Shown one piece after another: positions 14,101 to 34,474 of a stretch of 37,243 nucleotides of DNA; the stretch's first letter is position 1; the number at the start of each line of letters is the position of its first letter. The notes below the pieces were generated by a model. It saw only the letters and a list, made by a program, of their open reading frames with translations. It searched no databases and was not told where the DNA came from. Source of the stretch: Akkermansia muciniphila (GTDB lineage Bacteria > Verrucomicrobiota > Kiritimatiellia > RFP12 > UBA1067); contig CAMBQV010000008.1 of the NCBI GenBank assembly GCA_945870145.1, positions 1 to 37,243 on the forward strand, given 5' to 3'. The translations under genes and the position numbers were made by a program.

Positions 14101-17100
14101 TCACCGTCATGTCACTGTTGAGCGTGAACATATAATTTACGACACCAGGAGTAATTTCACGCCTAATGAGATCAGCGTCGTTTGTTGGCGCAACAAGTGG
14201 GAACAGATCTGCACTCAGGATGAAGGATTCTAAGGCCAAGCGGTTCGTATATGCTCCGTACGGGAAGTCGGGCACCTCAATATAACTATTTGCGGTACCA
14301 TCCAGAGACAAAACGCGACGTTGACCAGGTGACGTGGATAATGTCGGATCCCATCCAAACATCACTTCACGGCTGTCTTCGAAACCATCATCATCCGTAT
14401 CCGTGAGTTGAGGAAGAGTCTTAAATATCATCTCTTCTCCATTCAACAGGAGATCACCATCAAAATCACGATCGGAATCCAAGATGCCATCATTATATGA
14501 AAAGGCTCGGCTGGGATCTGTAAGACTCCAGTACTCATAAATGTTTGAAAGCCCATCATTATCTGGATCACCATCTGCTCCATGCTCTCCGAGTGGATTT
14601 ACGGCATCAAGTCCAAAAATGTGCTCCCACCAATCAGGCATACCATCCATATCTGTATCGGCAACCGAGGTATAGGCGGCATTGTAATCGTTATACGCTG
14701 TTGCCGAGGGCAGCCAGCCAAGCGCCAGGTCATATTGATACGCCTGTCCGTTGGTCAGGCCCAACGCAACGTAAAGGGCGTTGGCACCTGTGTACATCTG
14801 GGTCCAGAAGTTTGTATAGTTGTTCGCAGGGTCATACGATCCGTAGTTGCGTCTAATCCAGGAGCTGGGCAGGCCGTCAAACGTGGTGTCGCTATTTTCG
14901 AGCCAGGAAGCTGTCGCGCCGAGGTCATCCCAGAAGTCAGTGCACTGCTTAGCCCAGGTCTGCCCCAAGGGGAGCAGGTCCACAGGAATCTGCGAACCAT
15001 ACGTAAAGGTATAGGGGTTGTTACTCATCGGGAAGCTGTTCGTCTGAGCAACACCGCCGGCGCTGGTCCCTGACCAGTAGACTGAATCCAGCACCAGGCC
15101 ATACGTGACCTCAAACAGGTTACTCGTATTGATGATGCTGTTAATCCGAGGCAGATGCGCAGGGACATTCTCGATCCAGGGCAGGTAGTGATAGTTGGTA
15201 TAGACGGTATTCCTCAGCAGGAATTCCCTCCACCAACCCACGGCTGCGCCACCGACATCCCCAATCAGGTCGCCATCAGAGTCGGGACGATTAACATTGA
15301 CTTCCGGTGCGTTAAAGCCACGCGGAACCTGGGCCACATATTGTTCCTCATGCGCACTGAAGAGGTTGTTGAAGGTATAGTAGTTCAACAGGATGGGTGA
15401 GAGATAGAGATCGGACGCCAAGTGCAAGGCGGTGCGGCCTCTGCCCTGCCCAAGCTCGATAACCAAGCGGGCACGATTGTCATCAAGGTCTGCGCGTGTC
15501 AGCCGTTTTTTGAAGGTGTCCGCGATCTCGGTGTCGCTGCGTGGACCATCCCAGACGCGCACTTCGTCAATCCAGCCGCGATAGAAGTTAGCATAGTTAT
15601 TAGCCCACGTTGCATCCCAAGTCATGTAGGGGAACATCGGCGGGAAGTTCGCCAGACTGCCGTAACCGAGCGCTAACGAGCTGAAGGCGAGGTTGGCCGC
15701 GCCCAAGGTCAGGGAGCCGTTCCGGATGACCGGGGGTTCGTCCGGGTTCGTTGCGAGCGCCGGGTCAATACCCGTAGCCGGGATCAAGGCCGTGGCCATA
15801 CGTCCCTGCTGCTGGCCGTTGACAAAGAGGGCGAACTCCTGTGTCCGTCCATCCATACGGATGGTAATGTGCACCCACTTATTGGACTGAATAAATTGAC
15901 CATAGAGGCGCACGGAGTCGGTGTGGGGGTCATGTCCACCTGGATTATCAAAACCACCGAAGAGGCGTCCATCTGGAGCAATGCCGATCAGGAAGTTACG
16001 GCGCATACGCGGGGCCCCCGCAGGCTGGCTGGCATCAGACTGTCCATAGTCAAAGGTACGCTCAATCAGGATCTGTTCGTTGGTCGAGGTCGCCCACTCG
16101 GGACGTGCCCAGAGCTCAACGGTAAAGCTTCGGAAGGCATCATTCATGCCAGTGAACTGCTGGCCGATAACGGTGGCGCCATCGGTGTAGAGGTCGGGCG
16201 TGGTGGCTGCTGATTGAGCACCGGCGAACCAGAGCGCCTGTCTGCGTAGCTGATCTTCGGAGTCGAGCGGATTCGACTTGGTGTTGCGGTTAGCCACCAG
16301 CTCATCCTTGTCGGAAACACCGTCATTGTCCGTGTCATACCCTTCGTTCATCTCGAACTGATAGGTGAAGAAGGGCGGTAAACCAGCAGGCCAGAACCAC
16401 ATATCCCGATAGAGGGGCACCAAGAGTGACTTATAGCCCGTATAGCCATACGGCGGATAGAAACGAGCCGTCAGGCTGTTGATGTTGGAGGGATCCGTCA
16501 TCCAGAGCGGCGTCGGATCTGTGTTGTAATTTTCCGGCAGGGGCATGTTGACAATCAACATCTCCTCCAGATTCAGGAGCCCGTCCGCATCCGGATCAGC
16601 CGTCGGCATACCATTGAGCCATGGATAAAGATTGAAATCCATTGTGAAACCGATGACTGGAGTCTGAACAAACATCCACCAGTTAAAGTCATACATGGTA
16701 AGCGGGAAGCCATTCACGATCCACGCATAAGCGACGCGATCATCAAGGAAGTCAGGACGGATCCCATTGCCCAACAACGGATTGAGGCCATGGTACATTT
16801 CATAGAAGTCATCCATGGAGTCGTAGTCTGAGTCCGGATTATTCGGATCTGTGGAACAGTAGCCGTTTGGTCCTGCACGACGCATCCACCAGAGAACAGA
16901 AGCGGGAGCCGGCCAGCCTAACATGCATTGATCCCACTCGTTCGATACAGCTTCAAAGAGGGCACCCACTTCAAACGTGATATCCATGGGTTGACCAATA
17001 TTTCCAGTAAACGGGTCTACAACCGTTGCATCATTGGGGATAGCTCCCTTCGGAATATCGTAGCGGTAACACCGCAACGATTGCGTCATATACTCTTGAT

Positions 17101-20100
17101 AACTGGCAAGTCCGTCAAGGTCAGCATCCTTGTACTCGTCTGTGACTGTTCCATCCTGTCCATTCGTGATGACCATCGCCACAAAGAGCTCCGGTTGCCC
17201 TGGGAGAAGCGCAGGCAAGGTTGTGGCACCTAGTGCATCAACAGGCGTCCCCGCGAACTGATTTTCCCAAGGATCGGGCAGCGCATCGCGATCCGTATCA
17301 ATCGAACAGGGATTCAAGCCGCCGCCTGCGATACAGGTGCCGCCGATATCTACCGCGTTGCCATATATAAACGCACGTTCCGCACCATCACCCATACCGT
17401 CATTATCCGTATCTCCGCTCCACGGATCCGTCGGCCAGAATTTATTGACCCAGTAGTTATCTGGATCATCCACGGGCCTAATGATAGTCACGACACCGGC
17501 CATCGGCTGATTCGTGATGCCGAAATAATAGAGGTTAGCATTTGTATACGGTCTAATCGAATCCGTCCCCCAGTACTCCCAATTAGACGCATCCACCCCA
17601 ACCCACGGGGTGTGGGTAAATACATTTACATTGCCCCCTGCGCCCAAAGGAACGGCGACATAGAGCTCCCAGCCATCAGGCACACCATCCCAGCCGCCCG
17701 TCGTAGCATCTGTATCTGGCGTGTGCGCGTGCGTCGTAAAGCGACTCCAGGACTCTTGAATCAGAATACGCCGGGTGTTATTAAAGACGATGGCATTGTT
17801 GTTCGAGGTATAGAGATTGATCGCCGTATTAAAGCGCGCAATCCAGCCCGTGTTATTGGTAGCGACCATACCATTCAGTTGAAGTTCGTACATGAACTTC
17901 AGTAGCAAGTATTCATCCACTGCGGTAAAGGGCCGCGTATCCGGGGCCATTCCTGCTGCCCAGGGGCCAAAGCGATCTGCATTATCATAGGGCCATCCAG
18001 CACGTGGCCCAGGGCCAGCTCCGTACCCGCCAAAGCGAGGGACAGTACCAATCCATGCGGTTCGAGGATCAAACAAGTACTCATTACGAACCTGGAAGTG
18101 CATGATCAGAGGATTTTCATTCGTGGCTGCAGGACTTGCAATCATATTGGTAGGCGTCAGAACAGCGTCGGCCACTGGACGACCTACTGCCCAGGGTCCA
18201 TTCGCATCATTACCATAGCGATAGGCGGTCGTCACTCTACCAGGATAATTCGTAAACGTGAGCGGGTCAAACGCTACAAAGTAGTGGTTCGTGGCAATGA
18301 TCAGAATCGGATCATTGAACACATCGAAGCCTCCGTTGGTGGTCACAACCTGAATGTGACGACGCGGTGCTGTGGAAATCGCGAAATAGTCTGCGTCGGG
18401 ATTATTCTGCATGGGCAGATTTCCGTCGCGACCGTCGCAAGGTTCGAAGCCATTCAAAACTTCCCAGCCATCCGCCATGATATCGCCATCGGTATCCCAG
18501 TTCGTGGGATCTGTTCCAAGGACAAGCTCTTCAACGTCTAAAAGCCCGTCATTATCAAAATCGTCTCGCCACAGGGGCTCTGAATATGCACTACGAGGCG
18601 ACCTCGGATCAAAGGCGGTAACGATCTCCGAGTCATCAATCAAGTCGCCCTGCGCGATATTAAACGGATTATAGCGGGAACCCACGCGTCCGTGAATGTT
18701 AGATTCATACCAGAACCAATACTCCCAGCCATCTGGGTAACCATCGTTATCGGTATCGTTTCGGGTCGGATCCGTCTCACGATCATCTGGCGTCCCCAAA
18801 TAACCATCGGTGCCGCGAATTTCCTTAAAGGCGGTAAAGGCATTCACCGCTATACCACTTGGCAATGTGCTCGGATTAGCCACTGGAGCGAAGCTTAAGA
18901 CCCCCTGATTATCACCCGTCGGATAGACTGGCAGGTAGTCCTCGTCCGCATTGTAACCACCGAGATTTTGGAACCAAATTCCGCTCAAGCTTGTAGCACT
19001 TGTGGCTCCGGCACTCGTGGCGTTCGTACCACTCACAAAATAGCTCTGCACCAGACGATCGGGCACACCGTCCTGATTCAAGTCGCCGTTATTGACGCCT
19101 ACGGGATTTTCCACGTCATTTGCATTATATTCAATGGTAAAGATTGCACTCACCTGTACGATATTACCATTGAGAGTTGTACCTGCGGCGCCCCCGGTGC
19201 CAACCGTTCCTGAGGGCAAGTTGATGATGGTTGAACGCGGTGCCAAGGGTTGGGTCACGTGCGTCGGGTCCTGGAAGGCTACAAGAGGTCCGTTCCACGC
19301 AAAGAAGTAACTGCTCTTACCGACGTCCTCTGGCAACGCATTCAGTATCGAAAGCGGGGTCGGCGACGGTATGGCCAGCAACTGTGCCGACATGTCGTCA
19401 GCACCGAAGTAGAAGGTATAGAAAAGACCCGCCGTATCATAGACTGAGGGGCTTGCATTCGTGGCGATGATGGTACCTTCTCCCAGTCTCGTAAGTCCAT
19501 TAAAACCGGCTGTATTGGGCCTGATCGGCAGGGCAATGATCTTCTTGGAGTCCTTAACAATGACAATGAAGTTGATAATCGTAATAGCACCATCTTTGTC
19601 TGTAGCGGTCAAGCTAACGGGCGTCTGCAAATTCGCTGCCATATACGTATGGGTTATTGACCCAGATCCGCCATTGGTCGTCGAGGAGGTGCCGTCACCC
19701 CATGTCCACACCAGTTGCATGTTCAGATTATCTGCCGGGACATCAATCACGGACCAGTTAAAGGTACACGGCTGTCCCACCGTGGCAATTGTATTCGTGC
19801 TTCCATTAACAGGAAGCTGGATAACGGGAGCTTTGTTCTGAACTCTAATCTCCCCTGCATTTATTTCTGTGTAAATGTTCGCTCCCACGGCACCCGAGGC
19901 AATGCGCGGTGTCACCGTAAAACCTGATGAGACACTTAACGCTGTACCATCTTGAACCTGGAAGTAGACCGTTTTGTTTGTTTGCGAAGGATTGAATTCC
20001 ACGAAGGCAGGAACCGTGATAGCACCGTTGAGCGCGTCGTTTGGAGGCGTCACATCAAGAAAAACGACCACACGATTTGTGATACCGACTGAGCTCGGAG

Positions 20101-22456
20101 GACGCGAGAGGTAAATCTCCATTGTTTTGTTAATACTGTCATCTTCAAAACTGAACGCAGAGCCCGGGGGGACCAAAACAGTAATTGAGGGAGGTGCCAC
20201 TACATTGATCGGGAAGGGGACTGTACCCACGCCACCATCCTTATCCGTCGCGACCATGAATACCGTCTGACGACCAATCGCATTAAAGGTTTTTGTCACT
20301 GTGCCAGTTGCACCCGTGCTAAACAGAGACGACCCATCCTCAAACTGGAATTCAACCGTGATGGGTGGAGCCCCGGTGACATCGGCTGCAATATCAGTTG
20401 CTTTATATCTAAACGTGAAGGGAGTATTTATGATAATAGAGTCATAAGGAGACACGGGAGACGTGGAAGGCGCTATGGGTTGGCTGGTGGGTTGCGTATC
20501 AACAGTAGGTGGATTGTTTAAGATAGCGACAAACCCAGCATAAGCCCTCGGATACTGGGCTTGCGCAGCAGCATTCGTAATGGTCGGCACAAGCAGAATG
20601 CCTGTAGCAGTGTCTAGCGTGCCGTCTTTGATCGTCATGCCATAGAATGCTGAATTACTCCGACCCGCCGCAACGGTGATATTCGTTATTGAAAGGCCAA
20701 GACAGTTATTCGCAGAGGAACCATCGGTAACATACTGTGCCACGACCGTGACCATGGTATCTTGCAGAGCTTCAGCCGAAAGAACAACTTGATACTTGGC
20801 TGTTGTATCTCCCTCATAATAGGTGGAGTCCGGACTATTGACCGCAATAGAGACGTTTGGCGGTTTGGGTGCCGGATTTATCGTGATTGTATGAGCCGGC
20901 ATCGTATAACTTCCGCCATCCGCATCTTTAATGGTCAGCGACACCGTGTAGTTGCGGGCAACGGGGCCAATCCCTGTATAGGTATGGCTAATGGATCCGA
21001 GATCCAAAAAGTTTGTCTGTGTGATACGTGTGCCATCGCCAAAATTCCATCTAAATTCAATTCCCCTTGCCATATCTTCAGTAACATCTGTCAGGTTTTC
21101 CCACTCAAAGGTCACAACCGTGTTCTCATCCTCCGTGGTTGGCGCATAAGCCCATTGGACACTCGGGGCAACATTTAAGACATTTAAACCACCAGGGTTG
21201 GAGATCGTATATTTCGAGGTATTCGTCGCCATCGGCGTGATAAGAACAAGGTAGTCAATGTCACTATCTTTAGTTCCGTTAATGACGTTAAAGGGATACC
21301 AGACCGAGGTCTCTTCGTTTTGTCTGACTCTATAAGAGGGTTGCGGCGTGATCACAATATTAGTCAAGGTACTGGGCTGGTGCGTGAGGGCGAAGCTAAC
21401 ATAGACGTCGTTGGTGGTGTCTGCCTCGGAGAGCACAATTCGGAATTCGCCTGTTCTTAATGCGTTAGTCTCTGAGAGGGTGGTCTGCTGGGCCAGTGTA
21501 TTTCTGAACTCAATACCGATCGTCGGCTCGCCTGGCGGCTCAATCTGGACAGTACTGGTGATAAAGTTGGTAATAGATGTAGCATTATTAACATAGTCTG
21601 AGGGTCGTTGAGCATAGACGGTTGCAATGGTCGGGATTGCATTGGTGTTTAAGCCCTTTATCGGGAAGTCCACATAATCAACCCCCGCAGGAATGGTCAC
21701 CTCGAGCGCCTTATTCGGAGATAAACCGACCTGAAGCAGATTGGTATGAGGCGTCCAGACCCAGACCTTGATCGGAACCGAGCTTGTCCCCCCCGAGTTG
21801 ATTCTCCAGTAAGTCGAAGGCGCCCGAGCGACGAGCGTCGGGGCATTCGCACTGTCAAAACTAAGGGTGTTCACTCGGATGTTCTGATATGCTAGGTTTG
21901 AGTCACCATATTCCACGACAGCATCCAACACCGGATTCCACTTCGGATTATTTAGTTTCCAAACCACATTACTTTTAATGCTTTCCGAGAAGGCCAAATA
22001 TATCCAGCACTGATTGTCGAGGATTGGATAAACTGACGTAACGTCTGTGAAAATCTTTAAAGGATCTGCCATGTCACCTGGACGAATCGTATAAGAAAAG
22101 GTCAAGTCTGTACGCGTAAGCTGATCATATGGGGCTCCTGTCCGCGAAGTCCTTTTAAGCGTAGCATACGCTGTTGAAGATCCGCCCTCCGAGCCTACTT
22201 GCATACGTATTTGCGGCTGAACATATATGGTGTTGAATAAATTGGAGACTACAACCGTCCCTTCGACACGGATTGTAAACTCTATAGTTGCTCCAGGCAC
22301 ATTATTAGGGGAAGTATTTCTATAATCCGAATAGAAACCAATCACATCACCGGCGGAATCCTGTGCCAGCGCACCTGTTGCACACATCATTCCGCAGACG
22401 GCCAAGGGGAGCACCATCTTCTTCACTAGATTACTGAACCGTGTTCTTGTATTCAT
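5108..22456 (-). CDS. Giant secreted multidomain protein (about 5,782 aa) with embedded I9-S8 subtilisin
   Basis: The ATG at 22456 is preferred over the in-frame GTG at 22471 because GGAG lies 9 bases upstream of the ATG and the product then starts directly with a signal peptide (MNTRTRFSNL..., cleavage after ALA31). Domains in order (approximate residues): a divergent beta-rich N-terminal region; PKD modules near 430-530, 670-755 and 880-970 (WNFGDG, FQFEDG, WTWGDG) separated by Calx-beta-like stretches; then about thirty thrombospondin type 3 calcium motifs (DTDNDG, DSDGDG, DTDDDG...). Among these sit six LamG-like modules (about 2070-2315, 2710-2875, 3085-3280, 3900-4080, 4085-4285, 4535-4720). 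An I9 propeptide (3314-3385) and S8 protease (3409-3709) carry Asp3439 (VIDTGVD), His3496 (HGTHCSG), Asn3587 (AAGNS) and Ser3657 (GTSMATPHV), so catalysis looks intact. The C-terminal about 900 residues have Fn3-like segments and one last DTDQDWFPD motif. No sorting signal or beta-barrel is seen. It is the second gene of the minus-strand operon. Likely role: calcium-stiffened cell-surface or secreted protease binding glycans. Confidence 0.93.
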   Translation of the reverse strand: MNTRTRFSNLVKKMVLPLAVCGMMCATGALAQDSAGDVIGFYSDYRNTSPNNVPGATIEFTIRVEGTVVVSNLFNTIYVQPQIRMQVGSEGGSSTAYATLKRTSRTGAPYDQLTRTDLTFSYTIRPGDMADPLKIFTDVTSVYPILDNQCWIYLAFSESIKSNVVWKLNNPKWNPVLDAVVEYGDSNLAYQNIRVNTLSFDSANAPTLVARAPSTYWRINSGGTSSVPIKVWVWTPHTNLLQVGLSPNKALEVTIPAGVDYVDFPIKGLNTNAIPTIATVYAQRPSDYVNNATSITNFITSTVQIEPPGEPTIGIEFRNTLAQQTTLSETNALRTGEFRIVLSEADTTNDVYVSFALTHQPSTLTNIVITPQPSYRVRQNEETSVWYPFNVINGTKDSDIDYLVLITPMATNTSKYTISNPGGLNVLNVAPSVQWAYAPTTEDENTVVTFEWENLTDVTEDMARGIEFRWNFGDGTRITQTNFLDLGSISHTYTGIGPVARNYTVSLTIKDADGGSYTMPAHTITINPAPKPPNVSIAVNSPDSTYYEGDTTAKYQVVLSAEALQDTMVTVVAQYVTDGSSANNCLGLSITNITVAAGRSNSAFYGMTIKDGTLDTATGILLVPTITNAAAQAQYPRAYAGFVAILNNPPTVDTQPTSQPIAPSTSPVSPYDSIIINTPFTFRYKATDIAADVTGAPPITVEFQFEDGSSLFSTGATGTVTKTFNAIGRQTVFMVATDKDGGVGTVPFPINVVAPPSITVLVPPGSAFSFEDDSINKTMEIYLSRPPSSVGITNRVVVFLDVTPPNDALNGAITVPAFVEFNPSQTNKTVYFQVQDGTALSVSSGFTVTPRIASGAVGANIYTEINAGEIRVQNKAPVIQLPVNGSTNTIATVGQPCTFNWSVIDVPADNLNMQLVWTWGDGTSSTTNGGSGSITHTYMAANLQTPVSLTATDKDGAITIINFIVIVKDSKKIIALPIRPNTAGFNGLTRLGEGTIIATNASPSVYDTAGLFYTFYFGADDMSAQLLAIPSPTPLSILNALPEDVGKSSYFFAWNGPLVAFQDPTHVTQPLAPRSTIINLPSGTVGTGGAAGTTLNGNIVQVSAIFTIEYNANDVENPVGVNNGDLNQDGVPDRLVQSYFVSGTNATSAGATSATSLSGIWFQNLGGYNADEDYLPVYPTGDNQGVLSFAPVANPSTLPSGIAVNAFTAFKEIRGTDGYLGTPDDRETDPTRNDTDNDGYPDGWEYWFWYESNIHGRVGSRYNPFNIAQGDLIDDSEIVTAFDPRSPRSAYSEPLWRDDFDNDGLLDVEELVLGTDPTNWDTDGDIMADGWEVLNGFEPCDGRDGNLPMQNNPDADYFAISTAPRRHIQVVTTNGGFDVFNDPILIIATNHYFVAFDPLTFTNYPGRVTTAYRYGNDANGPWAVGRPVADAVLTPTNMIASPAATNENPLIMHFQVRNEYLFDPRTAWIGTVPRFGGYGAGPGPRAGWPYDNADRFGPWAAGMAPDTRPFTAVDEYLLLKFMYELQLNGMVATNNTGWIARFNTAINLYTSNNNAIVFNNTRRILIQESWSRFTTHAHTPDTDATTGGWDGVPDGWELYVAVPLGAGGNVNVFTHTPWVGVDASNWEYWGTDSIRPYTNANLYYFGITNQPMAGVVTIIRPVDDPDNYWVNKFWPTDPWSGDTDNDGMGDGAERAFIYGNAVDIGGTCIAGGGLNPCSIDTDRDALPDPWENQFAGTPVDALGATTLPALLPGQPELFVAMVITNGQDGTVTDEYKDADLDGLASYQEYMTQSLRCYRYDIPKGAIPNDATVVDPFTGNIGQPMDITFEVGALFEAVSNEWDQCMLGWPAPASVLWWMRRAGPNGYCSTDPNNPDSDYDSMDDFYEMYHGLNPLLGNGIRPDFLDDRVAYAWIVNGFPLTMYDFNWWMFVQTPVIGFTMDFNLYPWLNGMPTADPDADGLLNLEEMLIVNMPLPENYNTDPTPLWMTDPSNINSLTARFYPPYGYTGYKSLLVPLYRDMWFWPAGLPPFFTYQFEMNEGYDTDNDGVSDKDELVANRNTKSNPLDSEDQLRRQALWFAGAQSAATTPDLYTDGATVIGQQFTGMNDAFRSFTVELWARPEWATSTNEQILIERTFDYGQSDASQPAGAPRMRRNFLIGIAPDGRLFGGFDNPGGHDPHTDSVRLYGQFIQSNKWVHITIRMDGRTQEFALFVNGQQQGRMATALIPATGIDPALATNPDEPPVIRNGSLTLGAANLAFSSLALGYGSLANFPPMFPYMTWDATWANNYANFYRGWIDEVRVWDGPRSDTEIADTFKKRLTRADLDDNRARLVIELGQGRGRTALHLASDLYLSPILLNYYTFNNLFSAHEEQYVAQVPRGFNAPEVNVNRPDSDGDLIGDVGGAAVGWWREFLLRNTVYTNYHYLPWIENVPAHLPRINSIINTSNLFEVTYGLVLDSVYWSGTSAGGVAQTNSFPMSNNPYTFTYGSQIPVDLLPLGQTWAKQCTDFWDDLGATASWLENSDTTFDGLPSSWIRRNYGSYDPANNYTNFWTQMYTGANALYVALGLTNGQAYQYDLALGWLPSATAYNDYNAAYTSVADTDMDGMPDWWEHIFGLDAVNPLGEHGADGDPDNDGLSNIYEYWSLTDPSRAFSYNDGILDSDRDFDGDLLLNGEEMIFKTLPQLTDTDDDGFEDSREVMFGWDPTLSTSPGQRRVLSLDGTANSYIEVPDFPYGAYTNRLALESFILSADLFPLVAPTNDADLIRREITPGVVNYMFTLNSDMTVTAAFTPKDYSTTIVLTTDFVVPLNKWTSVQTVLDPLNDTLKIYFNGKEVAAVSTTYIARSKAFYGEARTIVGRNFAGYMDNVSISDTTRSCLVYNFDDGSSFNSTTPTPAFGSVVTQYEQAGQVEDTAAAVSAVAADWKGPVWLNRFSAAGTLAGNATMIYFNAEGITEDQLDSDEDGLSDAWEIANGFDPYNPDSNGNTIADGDEDTDGDGLSNYYEYLAGLNPRKASTDGVTLDIERDDDGDGLMNQLEQANGTMPNHADTDDDGIGDYEEIYGTNVAGTQAVGLSDPLNSLSPFIPRGLVLDGNGAVIVTNQARHALIEWTLGAWVNPSALANGTVLARSFSNGLANYELGIEVDGTILRPFARYSAVGVNGVAYNVKVSHENLAPGSIPVYGASNEVIRLIQNDWTHLAAVYAPADHMLRLYINGDCVAYRTDAIPLPIATDERFTDQPQLVIGARRVTGPGTYVNGFIGALDDVRFASYAVDYRGIRNMMGEQLIIDTRGVVDTNIVAVAQMPSTLTKPATEAVPNEFLVGMRQGINPATLIQKFKTDYKVDTVRQLKLANALYVRIPQGVDATLAKQKIKADTNVKYIEPNYIVHATQQKTPNDPRFPELWGMDNTGQLNGTADADIDAPEAWAVATGSDSMIVAVIDTGVDYNHPDLAANMWVNPDEIPANGIDDDGNGIIDDVYGMKAENGVVTGDPMDDIDHGTHCSGTIGAIGDNSVGVAGVNWKVKIMALKFLGPFGGTTADGITCIEYALEKKVMVSNNSWGGGGYSQALYDTLAKARDQGHLFIAAAGNSSDDNDKIPHYPSSYDLDNIVAVAATDNNDEMAYFSCYGATSVDIAAPGQDILSTLPVSMGSYGTMSGTSMATPHVTGAAALILSVNSSLNYLAVISALYNNADSLASLDGKILTGARLNIGNIIPAMQGGAGGLRVRTLSGWFRFDDGGTTIEDFTINANWRKNWQFAGRKLGSAAVTNSVAYLSYGDTDLDGLPDWWEETVGLDPLKAMSDDLVLDGERDDDRDGLLNFSEYRASLARLARSERGLSPTLSDTNSDGVTDANEDTDNDGLSNISEQNIHLTDPGNADTDDDGFLDGAELASRTLPTDAVSPKQNIALTFSGGAVSNTVVIADKVNGEYTLRHSAEQWTVEAWIYPTAYVAGRQVLLSRKVTELGLYNYELGLSNGFPYVSFDVLGGSRVECHGGVQVPLNTWTHLTGRFALGEPLDMNHLTLFANGIAVGETRTGLRCATGAGDLVLGSSGFAGQMLNARVWRIAQSDLAVFEMMRSELLGGNVGNRSGYLQVEADGFVKESATTLKPNGQTVDMLQEDWTLECWVRVQNPGVAGRLIARRNLSDQTDDDFNYALGLTPAGTIQGRYNLEYGFWTDPGQPFFVWVAGTDPTINNITGEIPVDDGDWHHVAYVRDANFCYIYVDGMLDTKQSRVRIPPIPNIIDDPMNYARVRAQGGPLILGEGAGDAWMTSLDEIRIWNRALPVVELKKVAEKNLAGIEPGLVSYFNFDFQMGKTADERAGIRDPDLEYGIYIRNARCITDLQDGPPITFDPLLSIQGVALVGMFNAIDGGLTLEDRIYRQGFKPFTQAAYAGRLGAGVSFTNRSAGFWVIEGLDSDGDGLPDEWESSNGLDPYSKDTDSDDIDDPLDDDDGDGLSYLAEYQAGTDPWDQDSDDDGFLDAMEDSDNDGLSNADEAAIGTNLGLADTDDDGMLDMDEGFDAQSRSVWAQNSLLPMLNRYLSLTGTAYLQVPAGRHFAEPTPMMRWTSDGKSFTIILDVNPSRYPLAGETNWLATCDLGHGVYNYTLQLLADGRVEAKTTLDPITLTNLTLTSTVSLPTNAWSTVTFMVEAESLRANLLINGEVAGFSTLPVLKSLITAQNSLSLVDVRFGEGFEGKMDNIAFYREILTAQTLKTLRDTENNRLGLLGYETENLYGCYTFDDGTSAVDNSGDIIQNNVSLKAGWRSGQVQDFACTFWPANKQRLANFTLQDWNMGWRNAGTIVGTGAKILPYSGEDINTKDSNGDGMPDAWSKRNGIDPYGPNASLGDMDNDGLSNYAEYLISTRYALAGVNPRSAQSLNQLPDYFNKPSGSKLTYGFMFSDHDFIEDWWEGNYMPSVASPFIYDPLQDSDADGWSNWAEARYSQAVMSTRPDIKERVIIGGRTITEIPVPLIETYVSYKGVQAAGSVVIQAYANPDMNGTPDAKWILAIGGDVEAQTLPLGFYEDKVVKTYLTPGSVVPGTFIIQFTDTLSGLSITNGYDRDGILYANALTAGAKDTPIGTINYVSGEIVVNMGFYQGEQLIVTAAQAGAVTNAATYVDVDASYIDVFYSTKLLGGWPQKLYLGRPTEGMIKGGTNYFFAFLDVGGTADSWDAGEPAGISTPFATVIGWDKNLLSLQLTDYTPYNLRLSLSTGLRSEDVVLAGGGAQGGGAVAAGTGYRRVRIQRSSIVTSGFTQHTIFDKVIYGRDYIHEGDIMNLPRFGGYGLDWGLIEVDYPLNAWKAVYKVYVGDADVLTQNTLIATFTNQFDTVRTVAAPVAPAHGAYVYSIRPSFSWSVVSSNNGYNAFAFELRSGGQAGTLVSPITARQVPTKDASTGYYVWEAPFYMGDKMVNGSPTVNNGVYYWRVQMLNSKYSTWSSTEWSPWRIFRWDVNTPLPPVGTATNLNGSSAGYGQLRAVVKYFGAVTNTVANRVILQAFQNRSFTGQPAAQYAFSASQNTMLTNLSLSATNAIPMRGLKPGVYYVRAFIDSNTNSVLDSWESWGYANYLGEQKSYYDVRPVTVSYSSITPLATVYIEDADTDQDWFPDAYEYEEYRAFSNFLEQTGPDQTSTNRGDGELNFSLLNPGSFPEVMMAMSAGSSEQQEAIIKLVSTEGQVVTPAVKPSVIIENLSFGKSGPSLAFDLTPAQPAKYTSALFTALMDTISAQAAQTTYRYNVRFSETLNAPRPWTTIAESGTVSVVNGETIKSPDYKNPVAGANGFFYVEIE
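11270..12610 (-). other. I9 propeptide plus S8 subtilisin module embedded in a LamG/TSP3 array
   Basis: Within the giant protein, LamG module 3 breaks off after GEQL (near 12610). A propeptide-like stretch follows (EFLVGMRQ ... YVRIPQGVD ... VKYIEPNYIV, about 12515-12305), then the full subtilisin domain. Codons of the catalytic residues: Asp 12140-12142, His 11969-11971, oxyanion Asn 11696-11698, Ser 11486-11488. An NPDEIPANGIDDDGNGIIDD segment is a probable calcium loop. Downstream the sequence resumes with SGWFRFDDGG (near 11255), which matches the strand that directly ends other LamG modules (YNFDDG near 13815, YTFDDG near 8240). The protease therefore looks like an insertion of about 450 residues. 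Confidence 0.8.
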
Positions 22457-22465
22457 GACTATTTT

Positions 22466-22469
22466 CTCC
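22466..22469 (-). promoter_or_regulatory. Shine-Dalgarno deciding the giant gene's start
   Basis: GGAG on the minus strand, 9 bases before the ATG at 22456. The alternative GTG at 22471 overlaps this site and would add only MEKIV before the signal peptide. Confidence 0.7.
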
Positions 22470-22505
22470 ACTTAAACTAACTGATCTAATCAAAAATGAA
22501 TCGGG

Positions 22506-26701: not shown

Positions 26702-27100
26702 ATGAAAATAATCAACGCATCTCAAGCCCCCGCTGCGATCGGCCCCTATTCGCACGCCATTGAAACCCATGGACTTCTCTTCTGCTCAGGACAGCTCCCC
26801 ATCAACCCTGCCAGCGGCAACATTGAGGTGGCAGGTCCCGGGGAACAGACCATGCAGGTGCTCCTCAACCTTCGCGCGGTCTTGACTGCCGCAGGCTCGG
26901 ACCTGAGCAAGGTACTCAAGACCACTGTCTTCCTCACGGATATGGGAGACTTCCCCTTTATGAATAAGGTGTATGAGGAGATGTTCGCCGGCCATAAACC
27001 TGCACGATCCACCGTTGAAGTGGCTCGCTTGCCTAAAAACGCCCGTGTCGAGATTGAAGCTGTCGCTGTTACTGCCGTGCCACATTCTTGTGGCACATAA
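26702..27100 (+). CDS. ridA: RidA/YjgF family imine deaminase
   Basis: 132 residues from the ATG at 26702, chosen because MKIINASQAPAAIGPYSHA matches the family N-terminus; an in-frame ATG at 26687 would add five residues. RidA hydrolyses reactive enamine/imine intermediates released by PLP-dependent dehydratases. Key family residues are present: Arg102 in ARSTVEVARLPK and Glu119 in VEIEAVAV. There is also SGQLPINPASG in the N-terminal half. The C-terminus has a short extra VPHSCGT tail. It lies 31 bases after folD and 4 bases before the sugar transferase gene. The Shine-Dalgarno is weak for either start. Confidence 0.93.
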   Translation: MKIINASQAPAAIGPYSHAIETHGLLFCSGQLPINPASGNIEVAGPGEQTMQVLLNLRAVLTAAGSDLSKVLKTTVFLTDMGDFPFMNKVYEEMFAGHKPARSTVEVARLPKNARVEIEAVAVTAVPHSCGT

Positions 27101-27104
27101 AAAG

Positions 27105-27677
27105 ATGAAACGCGCCTTTGATATACTGCTCACCCTCATCACAGCGCCACTCTGGGTGCCGCTAGGGGTAGCGGTGGCGTGTGTTGTCGCTGCAGGTATT
27201 GGCTTCCCGATCTTCTTTATTCAAGAGAGGCCAGGGCTGAACGAAGCGCCCTTTCGTTTGATTAAGTTTCGAACCATGCGTCCGGGTGACGCTCCAGATG
27301 CCGAGCGGCTAACGGGCCTTGGTAACTTCCTGCGTGCGACCAGCCTCGACGAACTACCCGAACTGCTCAATGTGCTGAAGGGCGAGATGTCCCTCGTAGG
27401 ACCACGCCCCCTACTGCTGCGCTACTTGCCTCGCTACACGCCCGAGCAGAAACGCCGACACGAGGTTCGTCCTGGCCTCACGGGTTGGGCTCAGGTCAAT
27501 GGACGAAACGCGCTCACGTGGAAAGAGAAATTTGCGTATGACTGCTGGTATATCGATCATCAATCATTCGCCTTGGATCTGAAAATTTTAGGACTGACGC
27601 TCTGGCGCGTCGTGACGCGTCAGGGAATCAACGCAAACAACGAAGCCACCATGGGTGAATTTAGAGGAGACACATGA
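27105..27677 (+). CDS. PglC-like initial sugar phosphate transferase (monotopic phosphoglycosyl transferase)
   Basis: 190 residues. The ATG at 27105 was chosen because MKRAFDILLTLITAPL matches the family start; a longer open frame from 26973 would overlap ridA by about 130 bases. Features: one N-terminal membrane-entry helix (about 5-40), FIQERPG, FRLIKFRTM, the catalytic Asp82-Glu83 pair in SLDELPELLNVLKGEMSLVGPRPLL, RPGLTGWAQVNGRN, and a C-terminal LDLKILGLTLWRV. The family moves a sugar phosphate from a UDP-sugar to undecaprenyl phosphate on the inner membrane face, the first step of a lipid-linked glycan. The small size (no long N-terminal domain) fits the PglC type. Its stop overlaps the next gene's ATG (ATGA), and PglD- and PglE-like genes follow, suggesting that the first sugar is a diacetamido-trideoxy hexose such as bacillosamine (inference). 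Confidence 0.93.
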   Translation: MKRAFDILLTLITAPLWVPLGVAVACVVAAGIGFPIFFIQERPGLNEAPFRLIKFRTMRPGDAPDAERLTGLGNFLRATSLDELPELLNVLKGEMSLVGPRPLLLRYLPRYTPEQKRRHEVRPGLTGWAQVNGRNALTWKEKFAYDCWYIDHQSFALDLKILGLTLWRVVTRQGINANNEATMGEFRGDT

Positions 27678-28294
27678 AAAAAATCATCATCATCGGCGCA
27701 AGTGGCTTTGGCAAGGAAGCCACATGGATACTGGAACGCATGAGCCAATCTGGCCAGGCCTTGGGCCTACTGGGTTTTTGTGATGACGCCCCTGACAAAC
27801 AAGAGGGACACTTCGTGGGCGTCCCTCTCCTTGGCAACGTCGAAGCAGCAGCAGCGCGTCTTGCAGGCGCACGCTTCTTCTGCGCGATCGGCAACAATCG
27901 CATACGCCAATCCGTGACCGCGCGCGCCCTCGCCGTCGGACTCCTCCCCTTCACGCTTGTGGATCCCACCGCGATCATTGCACCGGGCACAAAAATTGGC
28001 GAAGGCTCCTTCATCGGAATCAACAGCATCGTCTCAGCAGGGGCCACAATCGGAAACCACGTGATTATCAACCATCAAGCCTGCATCGGCCATGATGCCC
28101 GGCTGGCTGACTTTGTGCAGGTCTGTCCAGGTGCCCGCATCTCCGGCGGCTGTGAGATCGGAGAAGGCGCACTCCTTGGTACAAACGCCTCCACCATTCC
28201 CCTCATTCAGATAGGCGCGTGGTCCACACTCGGTGCTGGCACGACCGCACTCACCAGCCTTCCTGCCCACACCACACATGCACGTTTAAAATAA
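27674..28294 (+). CDS. PglD/NeuD-like sugar O/N-acetyltransferase (left-handed beta-helix)
   Basis: 206 residues, typical for the family. The N-terminal Rossmann-like part has IIIIGASGFGKEA (residues 4-16) for sugar-nucleotide binding. The C-terminal part has hexapeptide repeats (IIAPGTKIGEGSFIGINSIVS... onward). The family acetylates a UDP-4-amino sugar using acetyl-CoA. The presumed general base is His140 in IGHDAR. The residue nine positions later, His in C. jejuni PglD (His134, acetyl-CoA contact), is Gln149 here. The start overlaps the transferase stop by 4 bases, implying coupled translation. The DegT-type aminotransferase two genes downstream could supply its substrate; a PglF-like dehydratase is not in the window. 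Confidence 0.9.
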   Translation: MKKIIIIGASGFGKEATWILERMSQSGQALGLLGFCDDAPDKQEGHFVGVPLLGNVEAAAARLAGARFFCAIGNNRIRQSVTARALAVGLLPFTLVDPTAIIAPGTKIGEGSFIGINSIVSAGATIGNHVIINHQACIGHDARLADFVQVCPGARISGGCEIGEGALLGTNASTIPLIQIGAWSTLGAGTTALTSLPAHTTHARLK

Positions 28295-28297
28295 AGC

Positions 28298-29717
28298 ATG
28301 CGCAAGTACTTCTATCTACTGCTATTTGTCTTTTTCTTTCTCCTGTATGCAGCAACTGCGCAACGGGGAGTGAGTTGGCAGGACAGCGGCGAGTTTCAAT
28401 GGCGCATCCTCTCCGGAGATCTGCGTTGGTTTGCTGGACTTGCACGCGCACATCCGCTCTACCTGCATCTGGCGACGCTGTTTAGCGCTGCATTCCCCGC
28501 GTCCGCGTTCTTCTTCTCAACCCACTTACTCAGCGCTGTTGGCATGGCGGGTGCGGCAACCCTCATCGCCTTACTGGTTACACTGCAGACACACCGCTGG
28601 ACATGTGGCTTACTTGCTGCGCTCCTCTTCGGCCTTTCGCACATGCCGTGGTGGCTCGGAACCATTGCGGAGGTTGATGCCTGGGGCTGCCTTTTTCTCG
28701 CTCTGGAGCTTCTCGGCCTGCGCTGGGCGCTTGAGAAACAAACCGCGCTTCCTTGGCTCTTATTGGCCTTTCTCAATGGACTCGACTTCAGCCTGCACAA
28801 TATTGCGCTTCTGAATATTCCCATCTTGTTAATCGCGTGTCCGACTCGTTATTGGTTGGGGTGTTTAGCTGGATGGTGCGTGGGCTGCTCGCCCTTATTA
28901 TATTTGTTACCGCACGAAATCAAAGTGTACGGCATCGGCGGGGGCATCAAGAGTCTCTTGTTTGGATATGACTACGCGCACGCCGTTCTTGGAACGACCT
29001 TTAAATTCAAAATGGTTCTAGCAAGCTATGCCCTCTTTTCCATCAACCTCATGAACCCCGCTTGGTTCACGGCCCTGAGACCGCTGTGGCGGGAAAAAGG
29101 ATCTTTCTCACATGCCCTCAGGGGCTTGTTGCTGATCCATGCGCTCTTCTTTCTACGCTACTTCATTCCCAGTCAAGCGTTGTTTTCAACAACCACCCTC
29201 CTGCTGCTCTCTGTATGGGCTGGCCTCGGCGCCTCCTACCTGTCACAACGTGCCCTACTCCGTCTCTCGCTAGGGTCTATTGTTTGTTCGATAACTGTCC
29301 CCATACTCCTACTCTTTGCTGTTGACACCTATCACCTTTTCCCAAATCGACAGAGAGCCCTGCCCTTCCGAAAGGAGGCTCGCTATTGGCTCTTGCCGTG
29401 GAAACACAACGAGACCTCTGCTCAACAGTTTGTTGACCATATCGGGAAACTACTCCACGATACGGATGTCTTGATTGCTGACCCCACAATTGCGGGCCCT
29501 CTGATGGCGGCCCAAAAGGCTGGGGTGCTTTCCACAGGCTGGCGTTTGATCACGCCCTGGTCAGGCGAGACAGATGATATGCTGAAAGCCTTAGTCGGTT
29601 CTCAACAGCGAATATTTGTTCTTTCGCCCGTAGCTGGTTATACGCCAGCCGTCTTCTTAAACGGATCCTTCCGTTTTGAAAAAGAGGATATCCTCTATCG
29701 CGTCAGGAGTGTACATC

Positions 29718-29725
<8 letters not shown>
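28298..29725 (+). CDS. DUF2723-type multi-pass membrane protein (predicted glycosyltransferase)
   Basis: 475 residues with about ten hydrophobic helices in the first 370 residues and a soluble C-terminal part of about 100 residues (from RKEARYWLLPWKHNETSAQQF). After the first membrane helix it has WQDSGEFQ (Asp29-Ser30-Gly31-Glu32), and after a short loop LARAHPLYLHLATLF. Together these match the DSGE...HP(P)xYP(L) signature of DUF2723 (TMEM260-like, GT-C fold) proteins, where the acidic residues in the first outside loop are thought to be catalytic. Such proteins are predicted to transfer a sugar from a lipid carrier on the outer face of the membrane, in some cases to proteins. It starts 3 bases after the acetyltransferase and overlaps the next gene by 8 bases. 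The donor and acceptor cannot be read from sequence; an undecaprenyl-linked product of the upstream genes is one option. Confidence 0.8.
29705..29709 (+). promoter_or_regulatory. Shine-Dalgarno deciding the aminotransferase start
   Basis: AGGAG, 8 bases before the ATG at 29718, inside the end of the preceding gene. It favours this start over the open frame beginning at 29676. Confidence 0.7.
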
Positions 29726-30869
<1,144 letters not shown>

Positions 30870-30885
30870 AGAGAGAACGCTTACT

Positions 30886-32580
30886 ATGACACAGAATACA
30901 GTCAATCGTCTTCGGTGGGGTGCAATATCCCTCTTGATTGTCTTTGCTTGGTTTAATTATTACGACATGTTTCAATATGCGATTTACATGTTTAATAAGC
31001 CTGACGAGGATATGTCACACGGCTGGGTCGTGCCTTTTGTCAGCGCGTATGCGCTTTGGACACAACGCAAGCAGTTTTCCAAAGTAGCGGGTGTTCCTTC
31101 TGCACGAGGCTTAGCCTGGGTCGTTGTCTCCCTCCTTCTGGCGTGGCTGGGCGGCCGGGGCGGCCAGTTGCGGATCAACCAACTCTCTTTCATCGGGCTC
31201 CTCTGGTCGGTTCCGTATGCCTTCTGGGGCAAGGGGGTGGCTAGGCTCATGCTATTCCCTGCAGCTTATCTGTTGTTCACGATTCCGCTGACGAATGCAC
31301 TCGACTTCTTTACGATCTTTTTACGGCTCTTCTCCTCGGGCACCGCCGCCGCGATCTTAAACGGCTTCGGCATGGAGATTGAACGTTCGGGAACCGCGCT
31401 CTTCTCCCGCGTGCCTGGGAGTGAGTTCAATGTCGATGTCGCGGATCCGTGCAGTGGCATTCGCTCGCTCTTTGCCATGATGGCGCTGACCGTTTTCTAT
31501 GGCCATTTCACACTAAAGACCCGCCTCCAGAAAGGCCTTCTCTTTGCCTGCTCCATTCCCATCGCTGTCATCGGCAATATGTTCCGCATCTTCTCGATCT
31601 GCCTGATCGCCAATTTTTTTGGCGAGAAGATTGCCACAGGTTTCTACCATGATTACTCAGGATATGTTATTTTCGTCATTGGTGTCTTATTGATGTTCCA
31701 AGCTGCGGCTTTCTCAAAAATAGCGGATCGATGGCTATGCTCACGCTGGACATGGCTCGGGCAGTTATCAAAGCAGGATGACATCGGTGCTCATGTCCCC
31801 TCACCATCCCAAGACGCCCCTGCCCAGAAGAGATTACCTGGCCTGCTCGTTGTCTCACTGGCCCTCCTCCTGGTCAGCTCTGTTTTTGCCGCGCTCCTCT
31901 TCTCTGGGCCTCCGACGTATGATGAGACCCGCTTTATTGCAAGCTCGCTTCCGTTGCAGGTTCGCAACTTGACCAGTGACAAACCTTGGTTCTGTCACAA
32001 TGACCAGTGTGCTGTTTCGTTTGAAGAACAGGAGTTGATCAACAAAGGACAACAGACCAACACACTCTTCAGTTGTCTCACCTGTCGACAGCCCCTCTAC
32101 ACCTTTTCGCTAGGGGAAAAGACCTTGTTGCCGAAAGACACAACGATCCTCAAGCGTAATTATAAATCCTCTGCTGGCCTCAGCTACTCCGTCAGTGTGG
32201 TCTTGTCAGGCAAGAGCCGTGCCAGCATTCATCGTGCAGAAATGTGCCTGCCTGCGCAAGGCTTTGTCATGCTCGATGCCTACACCCTGCCCTTGAAGAC
32301 CCCGTCTGGAAGACCTAAAAACATACGTGTCATACGGGCCCAGCGCTCCAACTCAACCAGTGAGTTCGCGCTGGTCTATTGGTTTGCGAACCGAACGGAT
32401 GAGTGTACGTCACATTACAAACGGATTCTGCTAGACATGTGGGACCGCTCTGTTCATAATCGAATCAATCGATGGGCCATGATTGCGATTAACGTACCGA
32501 CACCCCTAGATAATGACCAATCGATCGAAGCCCTTGAAGCCTTTACAGAAGAGTTATACCAGAAGATCCTCTTGCCCTAA
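30886..32580 (+). CDS. Exosortase fused to an EpsI domain, with a Cys4 zinc-ribbon-like linker
   Basis: 564 residues from the ATG at 30886 (GAGAGA about 10 bases upstream). A longer frame from 30607 only shadows the aminotransferase gene. Residues 1-285 form the multi-pass exosortase/archaeosortase membrane domain. The triad is intact: Cys189 in ADPCSGIRSL, Arg234 in GNMFRIF, His255 in FYHDYSGY. After another membrane helix (about 318-340) comes a segment with CHNDQC (Cys370, Cys375) and CLTC (Cys397, Cys400), a zinc-ribbon-like spacing. The EpsI/DUF3485 domain follows, with SLGEKTLLPKDT (408-419) and SIHRAEMCLPAQGF (447-460). Exosortases cleave C-terminal sorting tails (PEP-CTERM type) of exported proteins at the inner membrane and are linked to exopolysaccharide loci; the neighbouring glycan genes fit that. 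No substrate with such a tail is in the window. Confidence 0.93.
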   Translation: MTQNTVNRLRWGAISLLIVFAWFNYYDMFQYAIYMFNKPDEDMSHGWVVPFVSAYALWTQRKQFSKVAGVPSARGLAWVVVSLLLAWLGGRGGQLRINQLSFIGLLWSVPYAFWGKGVARLMLFPAAYLLFTIPLTNALDFFTIFLRLFSSGTAAAILNGFGMEIERSGTALFSRVPGSEFNVDVADPCSGIRSLFAMMALTVFYGHFTLKTRLQKGLLFACSIPIAVIGNMFRIFSICLIANFFGEKIATGFYHDYSGYVIFVIGVLLMFQAAAFSKIADRWLCSRWTWLGQLSKQDDIGAHVPSPSQDAPAQKRLPGLLVVSLALLLVSSVFAALLFSGPPTYDETRFIASSLPLQVRNLTSDKPWFCHNDQCAVSFEEQELINKGQQTNTLFSCLTCRQPLYTFSLGEKTLLPKDTTILKRNYKSSAGLSYSVSVVLSGKSRASIHRAEMCLPAQGFVMLDAYTLPLKTPSGRPKNIRVIRAQRSNSTSEFALVYWFANRTDECTSHYKRILLDMWDRSVHNRINRWAMIAINVPTPLDNDQSIEALEAFTEELYQKILLP

Positions 32581-32582
32581 GT

Positions 32583-33656
32583 ATGACCTTAAAACAAAAA
32601 TTATTTTTAGACAACATTCGTTCACTCACCCTCGGCCTGGTGATTGTGCTTGGGGGTATGCACTTTAGAGAGCTGTTGCCGCTAATTCTTGAGTTTAAGA
32701 TCACCGCTCTTTCTCCCTCGCAACTGTTGACCTACGAATGGATCATCCCACTTGTGAGTGCGCTCATCCTGCTGGAGCGACGACGAAACATTCGCCTAGC
32801 CGCGAGACTTCCTTCGTGGAGAGGCGTGCTCTATATGACGCTCTATCTGATCGCCTTCGCCACCTCCATCCAACTCAAAAAGCCACCTTTACAATTCCTT
32901 TCGCTCGTAGGATTGACCTACTCGGCCTCGTATGCGCTGTGGGGCAAAGGCGTCGCAACTCTCTTACGTTTTCCGTTGAGTCTGCTCGTCTTCGCCATTC
33001 CCGCTACTTTTTACTTAGACTTCTTCGGGAACCTCTCACCTCTCTTCGGCCCCTTGTTCTGCTGGCTGAGTAACGCGATTGATTTATCGGGATTTGAATT
33101 CTTTCGAAATCTCTTTGAATTAAAAGATTTCACGCTTAAGCCTTACTCGCCTTCCAGTGGCATCCAGTCACTCTTCGCCATTAGCGCCGTGACCTTCTCT
33201 TTGTCGCATTTCACGGTCACGAAAACGTCCCAACGTTATCTACTCTATGCCTGCATCCTTCCGCTCACCTTTGCGGTGGATATTGTACACTCGTTCGTCA
33301 TCTGTTTGATCGCGGCTACACTAGACCCAACCTGGGCTCAGGAATTCTATAATTCCATGTCCCACTATGTCGCCTTTTTTATTGCGATTCTCTTTATCTT
33401 CCAACTGGCCAATCTGATCGTCACGATCAGTGCGCGCTTAAAAAAGCCTTCGCCTGACGAGTGGCTCAAAGGTGTTGAAAAGATTGACAAACGAGCGGAA
33501 GAACCTGAGCAAAACCTCTTTCACTCCATCATTATCGTCTTTGTCGTGGTATTATTGTCCTTAGCGACCTACATGTTTGCCGTTGAGACAACCCCTAGAA
33601 ATATGAGCCCGAAAAAAGCTCCCCCCGCAGCGCCGACCTACCGTATTACACGGTAA
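32583..33656 (+). CDS. Exosortase-fold paralogue lacking all three catalytic residues
   Basis: 357 residues, 2 bases after the active exosortase. The multi-pass topology and sequence follow that protein: ALWGKGVATLLRFP versus AFWGKGVARLMLFP, and SGIQSLFAISAVT versus SGIRSLFAMMALT. Over the triad region the two align without gaps at an offset of two residues, and each catalytic position is changed: Cys189 to Ser191, Arg234 to His236 (DIVHSF), His255 to Asn257 (FYNSMSHY). Arg192 of the CSGIR motif is Gln195. The EpsI domain is absent; instead there is a loop of about 35 residues, one more membrane helix (about 310-330) and a short basic, proline-rich tail ending APTYRITR. The frame is intact, so it appears maintained. 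Possible roles: subunit or regulator of the active enzyme, substrate recruiter, or a changed chemistry with Ser-His-Asn. Confidence 0.87.
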   Translation: MTLKQKLFLDNIRSLTLGLVIVLGGMHFRELLPLILEFKITALSPSQLLTYEWIIPLVSALILLERRRNIRLAARLPSWRGVLYMTLYLIAFATSIQLKKPPLQFLSLVGLTYSASYALWGKGVATLLRFPLSLLVFAIPATFYLDFFGNLSPLFGPLFCWLSNAIDLSGFEFFRNLFELKDFTLKPYSPSSGIQSLFAISAVTFSLSHFTVTKTSQRYLLYACILPLTFAVDIVHSFVICLIAATLDPTWAQEFYNSMSHYVAFFIAILFIFQLANLIVTISARLKKPSPDEWLKGVEKIDKRAEEPEQNLFHSIIIVFVVVLLSLATYMFAVETTPRNMSPKKAPPAAPTYRITR

Positions 33657-33660
33657 TCCA

Positions 33661-34341
33661 TTACTGATGGAAGGGCATGGCTTGCAGGCTTTCTAAGGAG
33701 GGCACACAGGGCATGAGGAGCCACTCCTGCTGAGGGGTCATAACAAGGGCCGCCCCCTGTAAATATCCGATCCAGTCTTCTGCCGTGTAGCTCTTAGCCT
33801 TGACCCCTGCTAACAAGGCTGCAATAAAGATATCGTGCGACACCAGAACCGTCAGCTGCTGTGTCGTCTTCGCCTTCAGCCATGCCACCATCTTAGGTGT
33901 TGCAACCGCGACATCATGGGAATAGAGTGCAGACCCCGTATGCAAATAATCCAGCATATAGTTAATATACCCACGCCGCATCATCTCGGCTGGCAACTTC
34001 TCAATATCATCATAATAAAAATTCTTTAACCCCAGAATTGGCTCCTCTACAACCGTAGCCTCGGAGCAACCTATGCCCTCCGCAAACATTTTCGCCGTCA
34101 ACTGGCACCGCATCATGGGACTCGACAGGAAGCGAACATCCGCGTGTCCAGACAACAACTGCCCCGCCTCGCGCGCCATGGCTTCGCCACGCGGCGTCAG
34201 GGCGAGGGCATGCCCGAAGGTCGTATCGCCTGGGACAATCGGTGGCCGCTCCGAATGCCGGATCAGCAGGGAGACCTTACAGCCCTCTGCTAAAAATTGT
34301 CTGATCTTCTTGAAATCAATTGTCTCTGTCAAAATGTTCAT
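33661..34341 (-). CDS. Histidine phosphatase superfamily protein (branch 1)
   Basis: 226 residues from the ATG at 34341 (AAGG 8 bases upstream); a longer frame to 34404 would run into the repeat region. LLIRHSERPP (Arg28-His29) matches the RHG catalytic motif with Ser in place of Gly. The second-half motifs are SSPMMRCQLTAKMF (phosphate-binding Arg) and LVSHDIFIAALL (second His). LTPRGEAMAREAGQLL follows the usual LTxxGxxqA pattern. No signal peptide is evident. The substrate is not predictable; the family includes phosphoglycerate mutases, SixA-type protein phosphatases and cobalamin or sugar phosphatases. It converges on the exosortase cassette with only 4 bases between stops, so it is a separate unit. 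Confidence 0.88.
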   Translation of the reverse strand: MNILTETIDFKKIRQFLAEGCKVSLLIRHSERPPIVPGDTTFGHALALTPRGEAMAREAGQLLSGHADVRFLSSPMMRCQLTAKMFAEGIGCSEATVVEEPILGLKNFYYDDIEKLPAEMMRRGYINYMLDYLHTGSALYSHDVAVATPKMVAWLKAKTTQQLTVLVSHDIFIAALLAGVKAKSYTAEDWIGYLQGAALVMTPQQEWLLMPCVPSLESLQAMPFHQ

Positions 34342-34370
34342 AAACATTGCCTTGCATGCTAATTCATTTT

Positions 34371-34474
34371 TTACCGCAGAGAACGCAAAGATCGCATAGA
34401 TCACCTTCGAAATACTTTGTCTTGCAGTTCTGGGGCTTCTCTTTTCTTTGTGTTCTATGTGTTCTTTGCGGTAA
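34371..34474. repeat. Inverted-repeat element with 9-base periodic arms
   Basis: Left arm TTACCGCAGAGAACGCA (34371-34387); the right arm 34458-34474 reads TTACCGCAAAGAACACA on the minus strand, 15 of 17 identical. Both arms continue inwards as degenerate copies of a 9-base unit like AGAACRCAW. No open frame or transposase lies inside, so it is a small non-coding element, possibly MITE-like, able to fold into a long hairpin. Confidence 0.75.

Follow-up and report, generated by a model that had tools for sequence, protein, structure and literature searches.

The window, by which we mean the whole 37,243-nucleotide stretch of DNA analyzed here, carries a gene run in the order initiating sugar transferase, NeuD, TMEM260-like protein, DegT, exosortase-EpsI and, in last place, a second exosortase homolog that starts with an ATG and that we refer to as the pseudo-exosortase (Table 1). 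The exosortase-EpsI gene stops 2 nt in front of it, and a histidine phosphatase gene faces it at a distance of 4 nt. The upstream open reading frame as listed (GTG at 30607) is too long, and the most likely start of exosortase-EpsI is the ATG at 30886, after the end of DegT at 30869. Both known species of the genus share the order TMEM260-DegT-XrtEpsI-pseudo-HisPhos-TilS and the 2-nt gap, i.e., the two exosortase genes are adjacent in conserved linkage, and the position directly behind an exosortase-EpsI fusion, described in the first-pass annotation, recurs in the second species.

Table 1 Features of the pseudo-exosortase locus (positions in the window)
Feature	Position	Strand	Remarks
Initiating sugar transferase (Bac_transf) and NeuD/PglD acetyltransferase	26973..28294	+	Same exopolysaccharide cluster
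TMEM260-like membrane protein	28298..29725	+	Same exopolysaccharide cluster
DegT/LegC-type sugar aminotransferase	29676..30869	+	Same exopolysaccharide cluster
Active exosortase-EpsI fusion, 564 aa	30886..32580	+	Intact C-S-G, N-x-x-R and H-x3-G; PF09721 and DUF3485
Pseudo-exosortase gene, 357 aa	32583..33656	+	Exosortase fold (predicted), without catalytic triad and without EpsI domain
Ser191 codon	33153..33155	+	Catalytic Cys position; Ser also in ortholog; Cys in 44/44 other family proteins aligned
Asp233 codon	33279..33281	+	Position of invariant Asn in N-x-x-R; Asp in both species
His236 codon	33288..33290	+	Catalytic Arg position; congener retains Arg, hence a species-specific change
Asn257 codon	33351..33353	+	Catalytic His position; Ser in congener
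His261 codon	33363..33365	+	Position of invariant Gly in H-x3-G; Gln in congener
Predicted last helix, residues 312-336	33516..33590	+	Probable remnant of exosortase-EpsI linker helix; alignments to fusions reach residues 323-355 (weak support)
Histidine phosphatase	33661..34404	-	Convergent; 89% identical in congener; marks vertically inherited flank

The sole Pfam match of the pseudo-exosortase is PF09721 (63.8 bits, E 2e-17; gathering cut-off 25.7 bits), which makes it a member of the exosortase/EpsH family by homology. It scores far below the cut-off of every named exosortase model in NCBIfam (the best, XrtD, gives 60 bits against 400) and reaches 38.9 bits with 8TM_EpsH, the cut-off of which is 105.55. 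AlphaFold2 returned a mean pLDDT of 81.9 and a pTM of 0.78, and the exosortase fold is predicted with fair confidence to be kept. Among solved structures there was no sequence or fold match, and we found no solved exosortase structure; the active site is therefore without an experimental template.

Two more exosortases are present in the window genome (G000:C139 and G000:C58; L037 and L038), both with Cys, Arg and His and both beside large membrane proteins. Elsewhere in the window, a reverse-strand gene (5108-22471) encodes a 5787-aa secreted-type protein (subtilase, LamG-like, PKD, TSP3 repeats) without a PEP-CTERM tail. Four PEP-CTERM proteins exceed the PF07589 cut-off in the window genome, and none exceeds the Pfam cut-off in the congener genome, which is 92% complete. 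Because the congener has no such protein, shared substrates cannot be named, and those of the system that includes the pseudo-exosortase may carry a different signal.

A remodelled active site under purifying selection

The pseudo-exosortase and the exosortase encoded upstream are 36% identical over 240 aa (E 5e-38), with residues 191-276 aligned free of gaps, and the upstream Cys, Arg and His fall on Ser191, His236 and Asn257. The first-pass annotation had read the locus in this way, as a pseudo-exosortase aligned gaplessly across the active-site region with an active exosortase in front of it, and we agree. Haft and colleagues (2006; PMC1569441) defined six invariant exosortase residues in the motifs C-x-G, N-x-x-R and H-x3-G, and the Cys and two Arg are required for activity of Haloferax archaeosortase A (reviewed in PMC9263693). 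In the window protein the motifs read S-x-G, D-x-x-H and N-x3-H, with one of the six residues kept (Gly193), while the congener ortholog has S-x-G, D-x-x-R and S-x3-Q, keeping Gly193 and Arg236. The invariant Cys-x-Gly, Asn-x-x-Arg and His-x3-Gly of a working exosortase are thus missing from the pseudo-exosortase.

The changes extend over the rest of the site. A comparison set of 44 exosortases from its family and order has Cys, Arg and His throughout. Relative to this set, the pseudo-exosortase has replaced the near-invariant polar residues E47, D48, R97, R102, R153, D186, R195, G254 and D258, and likewise N233 and G261, and retains scaffold residues including P56, G81, G121, F130, P131, P140, G170, P227 and F265. 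In both species further conserved polar motifs have given way to other residues. The first-pass statement that the neighboring residues are conserved therefore applies to the hydrophobic scaffold and fails for most of the polar residues conserved in the family; judging from the alignment, the whole polar site is remodelled, beyond the triad alone.

The only complete ortholog found, in a scan of genome contigs that returned no other, is in the congener genome G001 (record CAIZQW01, a metagenome bin), where it is 84% identical and has the same gene order. Its residues at the triad positions are Ser, Arg and Ser, i.e., this close relative is also without Cys and His, and of the three replacements singled out in the first-pass annotation Ser191 is conserved whereas His236 and Asn257 are not. 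Pairwise dN/dS of the pseudo-exosortase gene is 0.18 (NG86) to 0.24 (YN00), with a dS (0.41-0.52) about equal to that of the next gene (0.43-0.51). The frame is intact in both species and conservation is even along the protein, at 76-86% per 51-residue block. When the same number of differences was simulated under neutrality, the frame stayed open in 0.5% of cases and identity averaged 69%, never exceeding 75%. We reject pseudogene decay based on the dN/dS of about 0.2 and this simulation, in line with the first-pass view that the gene is not simply decaying.

A third, partial relative (L036 7826-8264, G001:C449) is 49% identical over 141 aa and stops at the contig edge before the triad. It has Q-L-L in place of E-D-M and x-K-P-P-x-Q in place of R-G-x-Q-x-R, together with a two-residue insertion, and shares the remodelled motifs Q-L-L-x-x-E-W and K-P-P-x-Q with the pseudo-exosortase. 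It is joined inside ExbD, exactly at the end of synteny with the window genome, and the contig ends 440 bp further on; its genomic place is probably an assembly join, and we used it as a sequence only.

With Cys and His gone in both species, purifying selection on the gene and a model at pLDDT 82, the comparison of the two complete orthologs known confirms that 32583..33656 encodes a real, selected and, as far as sequence can tell, catalytically dead exosortase paralog, i.e., a pseudoenzyme.

Origin, partner turnover and other inactive exosortases

In the tree, both pseudo-proteins group among the family's exosortase-EpsI fusions, in sets of 13-14 rows with 96-97% bootstrap support; their stem measures about 2.8-3.5 changes per column and ends in tips of about 0.1. 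These branch lengths indicate rapid change along the stem and constraint afterwards. Alignments of the pseudo-exosortase to the fusions extend into the helix preceding EpsI, and therefore the simplest source looks like a truncated duplicate of such a fusion. The fusions closest in the tree (in G004, G026 and G016) differ from the pseudo-protein, which probably retains their linker helix, in that it has no EpsI domain, a remodelled catalytic site and a long stem.

The active neighbor has a different history. Between the two species the active exosortase-EpsI is 58% identical and saturated at synonymous sites, compared with 84% and a dS of about 0.5 for the pseudo-exosortase gene. DegT and the TMEM260-like gene are likewise saturated at synonymous sites, the histidine phosphatase has a dS of about 0.5, and the pseudo-exosortase start codon marks a rise in nucleotide identity from about 0.55 to 0.87. 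Seen as a block, window positions 28298-32580 and L035 11246-15667 form a saturated exopolysaccharide segment that includes the active exosortase and has a sharp boundary at that codon. This suggests that the upstream block, with the active exosortase, was replaced in one lineage. Because the active partner turned over and the pseudo-exosortase stayed, the latter is not locked to one neighboring allele. The two-component membrane complex suggested in the first-pass annotation would fit the gene order, but the two proteins show no coupled divergence, and a stable heterodimer with matched evolution is unsupported, the partner being far more diverged between species. Partner turnover is what speaks most strongly against a heterodimer in tight co-evolution; it is compatible with a partner role alongside any exosortase of that type.

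Tandem exosortase genes occur in the window genus only, among 112 family genomes, and a search of 346 class genomes for relatives outside the genus gave none above about 35% identity. Further exosortases without the Cys were found in the class, in 24 genomes chosen mostly for having several exosortases and in a later search; this sampling is biased, and the cases therefore give no frequency. In one genome of another family (G300; L128, G300:C377), a dead exosortase is encoded directly in front of an active one, with a separate EpsI behind (2044-3075 and 929-1948, reverse strand). In each of six genomes of a further family, f18 (G186, G187, G189, G190, G191 and G192), a dead exosortase is accompanied by an EpsI of its own, and an active exosortase with EpsI lies elsewhere. 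These f18 modules (at L129, L130, L131, L139, L140 and L173; dead exosortase and EpsI are fused in L140) sit apart from the active exosortase, in exopolysaccharide clusters that mostly include an initiating sugar transferase. Their dead exosortases have Thr, Arg, Ala or Pro where the Cys would be, retain the Arg and in most cases have no His; the one in G190 appears to be truncated. When all dead exosortases of the class outside the window genus are considered, the residues at the Cys position are Thr, Arg, Ala, Pro and Asp. Given that the f18 dead copies lie away from the active enzyme, obligate pairing of an active and a dead exosortase is not a general rule.

In the free tree, the f18 and G300 copies form their own set apart from the window genus (90/93 support), which favors two origins; an AU test did not reject a single clade of all dead exosortases (p 0.119), and long branches make the separation unsure. 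Other variants were seen in passing. Two exosortases (L067 1923-3032 and L162 1459-2484) have Cys and Arg intact and Glu at the catalytic His position (VYEQxSG), and one family member (G029) has six PF09721 matches on separate contigs, of which those read retain the triad.

Possible roles and known systems

We propose that an exosortase-EpsI fusion was duplicated and that, ahead of the split between the two known species, the duplicate lost its EpsI domain and its Cys/His chemistry. It would have evolved fast on that branch and then come under purifying selection. The pseudo-exosortase would now serve the sorting system as a membrane partner without catalytic activity: its retained helical scaffold would most likely bind the hydrophobic sorting helix at the C terminus of substrates, or else the active exosortase, and it might hold, select or hand over cargo that the active enzyme cleaves. 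We favor this reading because of the catalytic loss, the selection, the kept fold, the conserved order with its 2-nt gap and the recurrence of dead copies in G300 and f18. Partner turnover, the f18 dead copies that are not beside an active one, the congener's lack of a PEP-CTERM protein above the cut-off and the number of complete orthologs, only two, argue against it. On balance, a role in an exopolysaccharide-linked sorting system, as a receptor or partner without catalysis, seems plausible at a little short of an even chance, with complex formation something that we only infer. The broader reading, which we hold as possible but doubtful, is that pseudo-exosortases are recurrent and functional in the surface-sorting and exopolysaccharide machines of the class and evolved at least twice: in the window genus as the tandem partner that follows the active enzyme, and in f18 and G300 as dead modules, mostly with EpsI.

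The protein may instead be a repurposed exopolysaccharide component that acts in glycan assembly or export, or in envelope organization, takes no part in protein sorting and is independent of its active neighbor. The pseudo-exosortase gene remains linked to its chromosomal flank even though the two species have strongly different alleles of the active exosortase, the f18 modules lie in exopolysaccharide clusters away from the active exosortase and the congener has no recognizable PEP-CTERM substrate, all of which fit such a role; we nevertheless regard it as somewhat unlikely, given that every genome read has at least one active exosortase, adjacent to the dead one in the window genus and in G300. 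A regulatory decoy that reduces processing by competition with the active enzyme, over substrates or EpsI, would have the same scaffold in the same operon without catalysis, as expected of a common mode of action of pseudoenzymes (reviewed in PMC10211241), but nothing specific favors inhibition over assistance and we consider it improbable.

Very improbable is a decaying relic of the duplication on its way to loss: although the catalytic residues are gone and the two species have different residues at two of the three triad positions, the low dN/dS, the frame open in both, an identity well above that of the active neighbor, the even conservation and the protein's own motifs kept in the 49% relative all speak against it. 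The first-pass annotation also raised the possibility of a different chemistry based on a Ser-His pair, with Ser191 as nucleophile and His236 as base. Ser191 and its S-G-I context are conserved in the ortholog, but Arg stands there for His236 and Ser for Asn257, and the replacements of the Cys in other dead exosortases make loss of the nucleophile the rule. We reject Ser-His chemistry since His236 and Asn257 are not conserved, and find a serine-type enzyme the least likely of the roles considered.

A dead exosortase under selection suggests that a dead enzyme copy has a job of its own. Near an active enzyme, it offers a handle on sorting-helix recognition apart from cleavage, on the role of EpsI and on whether exosortases work as complexes; if pseudo-exosortases are indeed recurrent, certain exosortase systems would be two-component complexes in the membrane, one subunit catalytic and the other not. 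Exosortases are counted as active from family models that also match dead copies, and a PF09721 match alone should not be taken to mean an active enzyme.

In the literature searched we found no description of inactive exosortases, neither of a selected pseudoenzyme beside an active exosortase nor of modules of a dead exosortase with EpsI; the 2012 family survey by Haft and colleagues lies outside that literature and could mention them. Descent from known exosortases is evident. With the PF09721/EpsH family (XrtA- and XrtD-like), the pseudo-exosortase shares the helical plan, the exopolysaccharide cluster, a neighboring EpsI domain and a match above the Pfam cut-off across the whole domain, and it differs in having no catalytic Cys, Arg or His and in having lost five of the six invariant residues. 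In Flavobacterium johnsoniae, exosortase F (XrtF) and an adjacent associated protein are both needed for biofilm and colonization (PMC10936215); this system also pairs an exosortase with an adjacent gene, and its partner, annotated as exosortase F system-associated protein, is likened to ours by gene adjacency only. Inactive paralogs kept beside an active enzyme are likewise known from Fam20A/Fam20C and from the inactive homolog of S-adenosylmethionine decarboxylase, where an allosteric role is proven (PMC10211241), whereas for the pseudo-exosortase it is a role that we infer.
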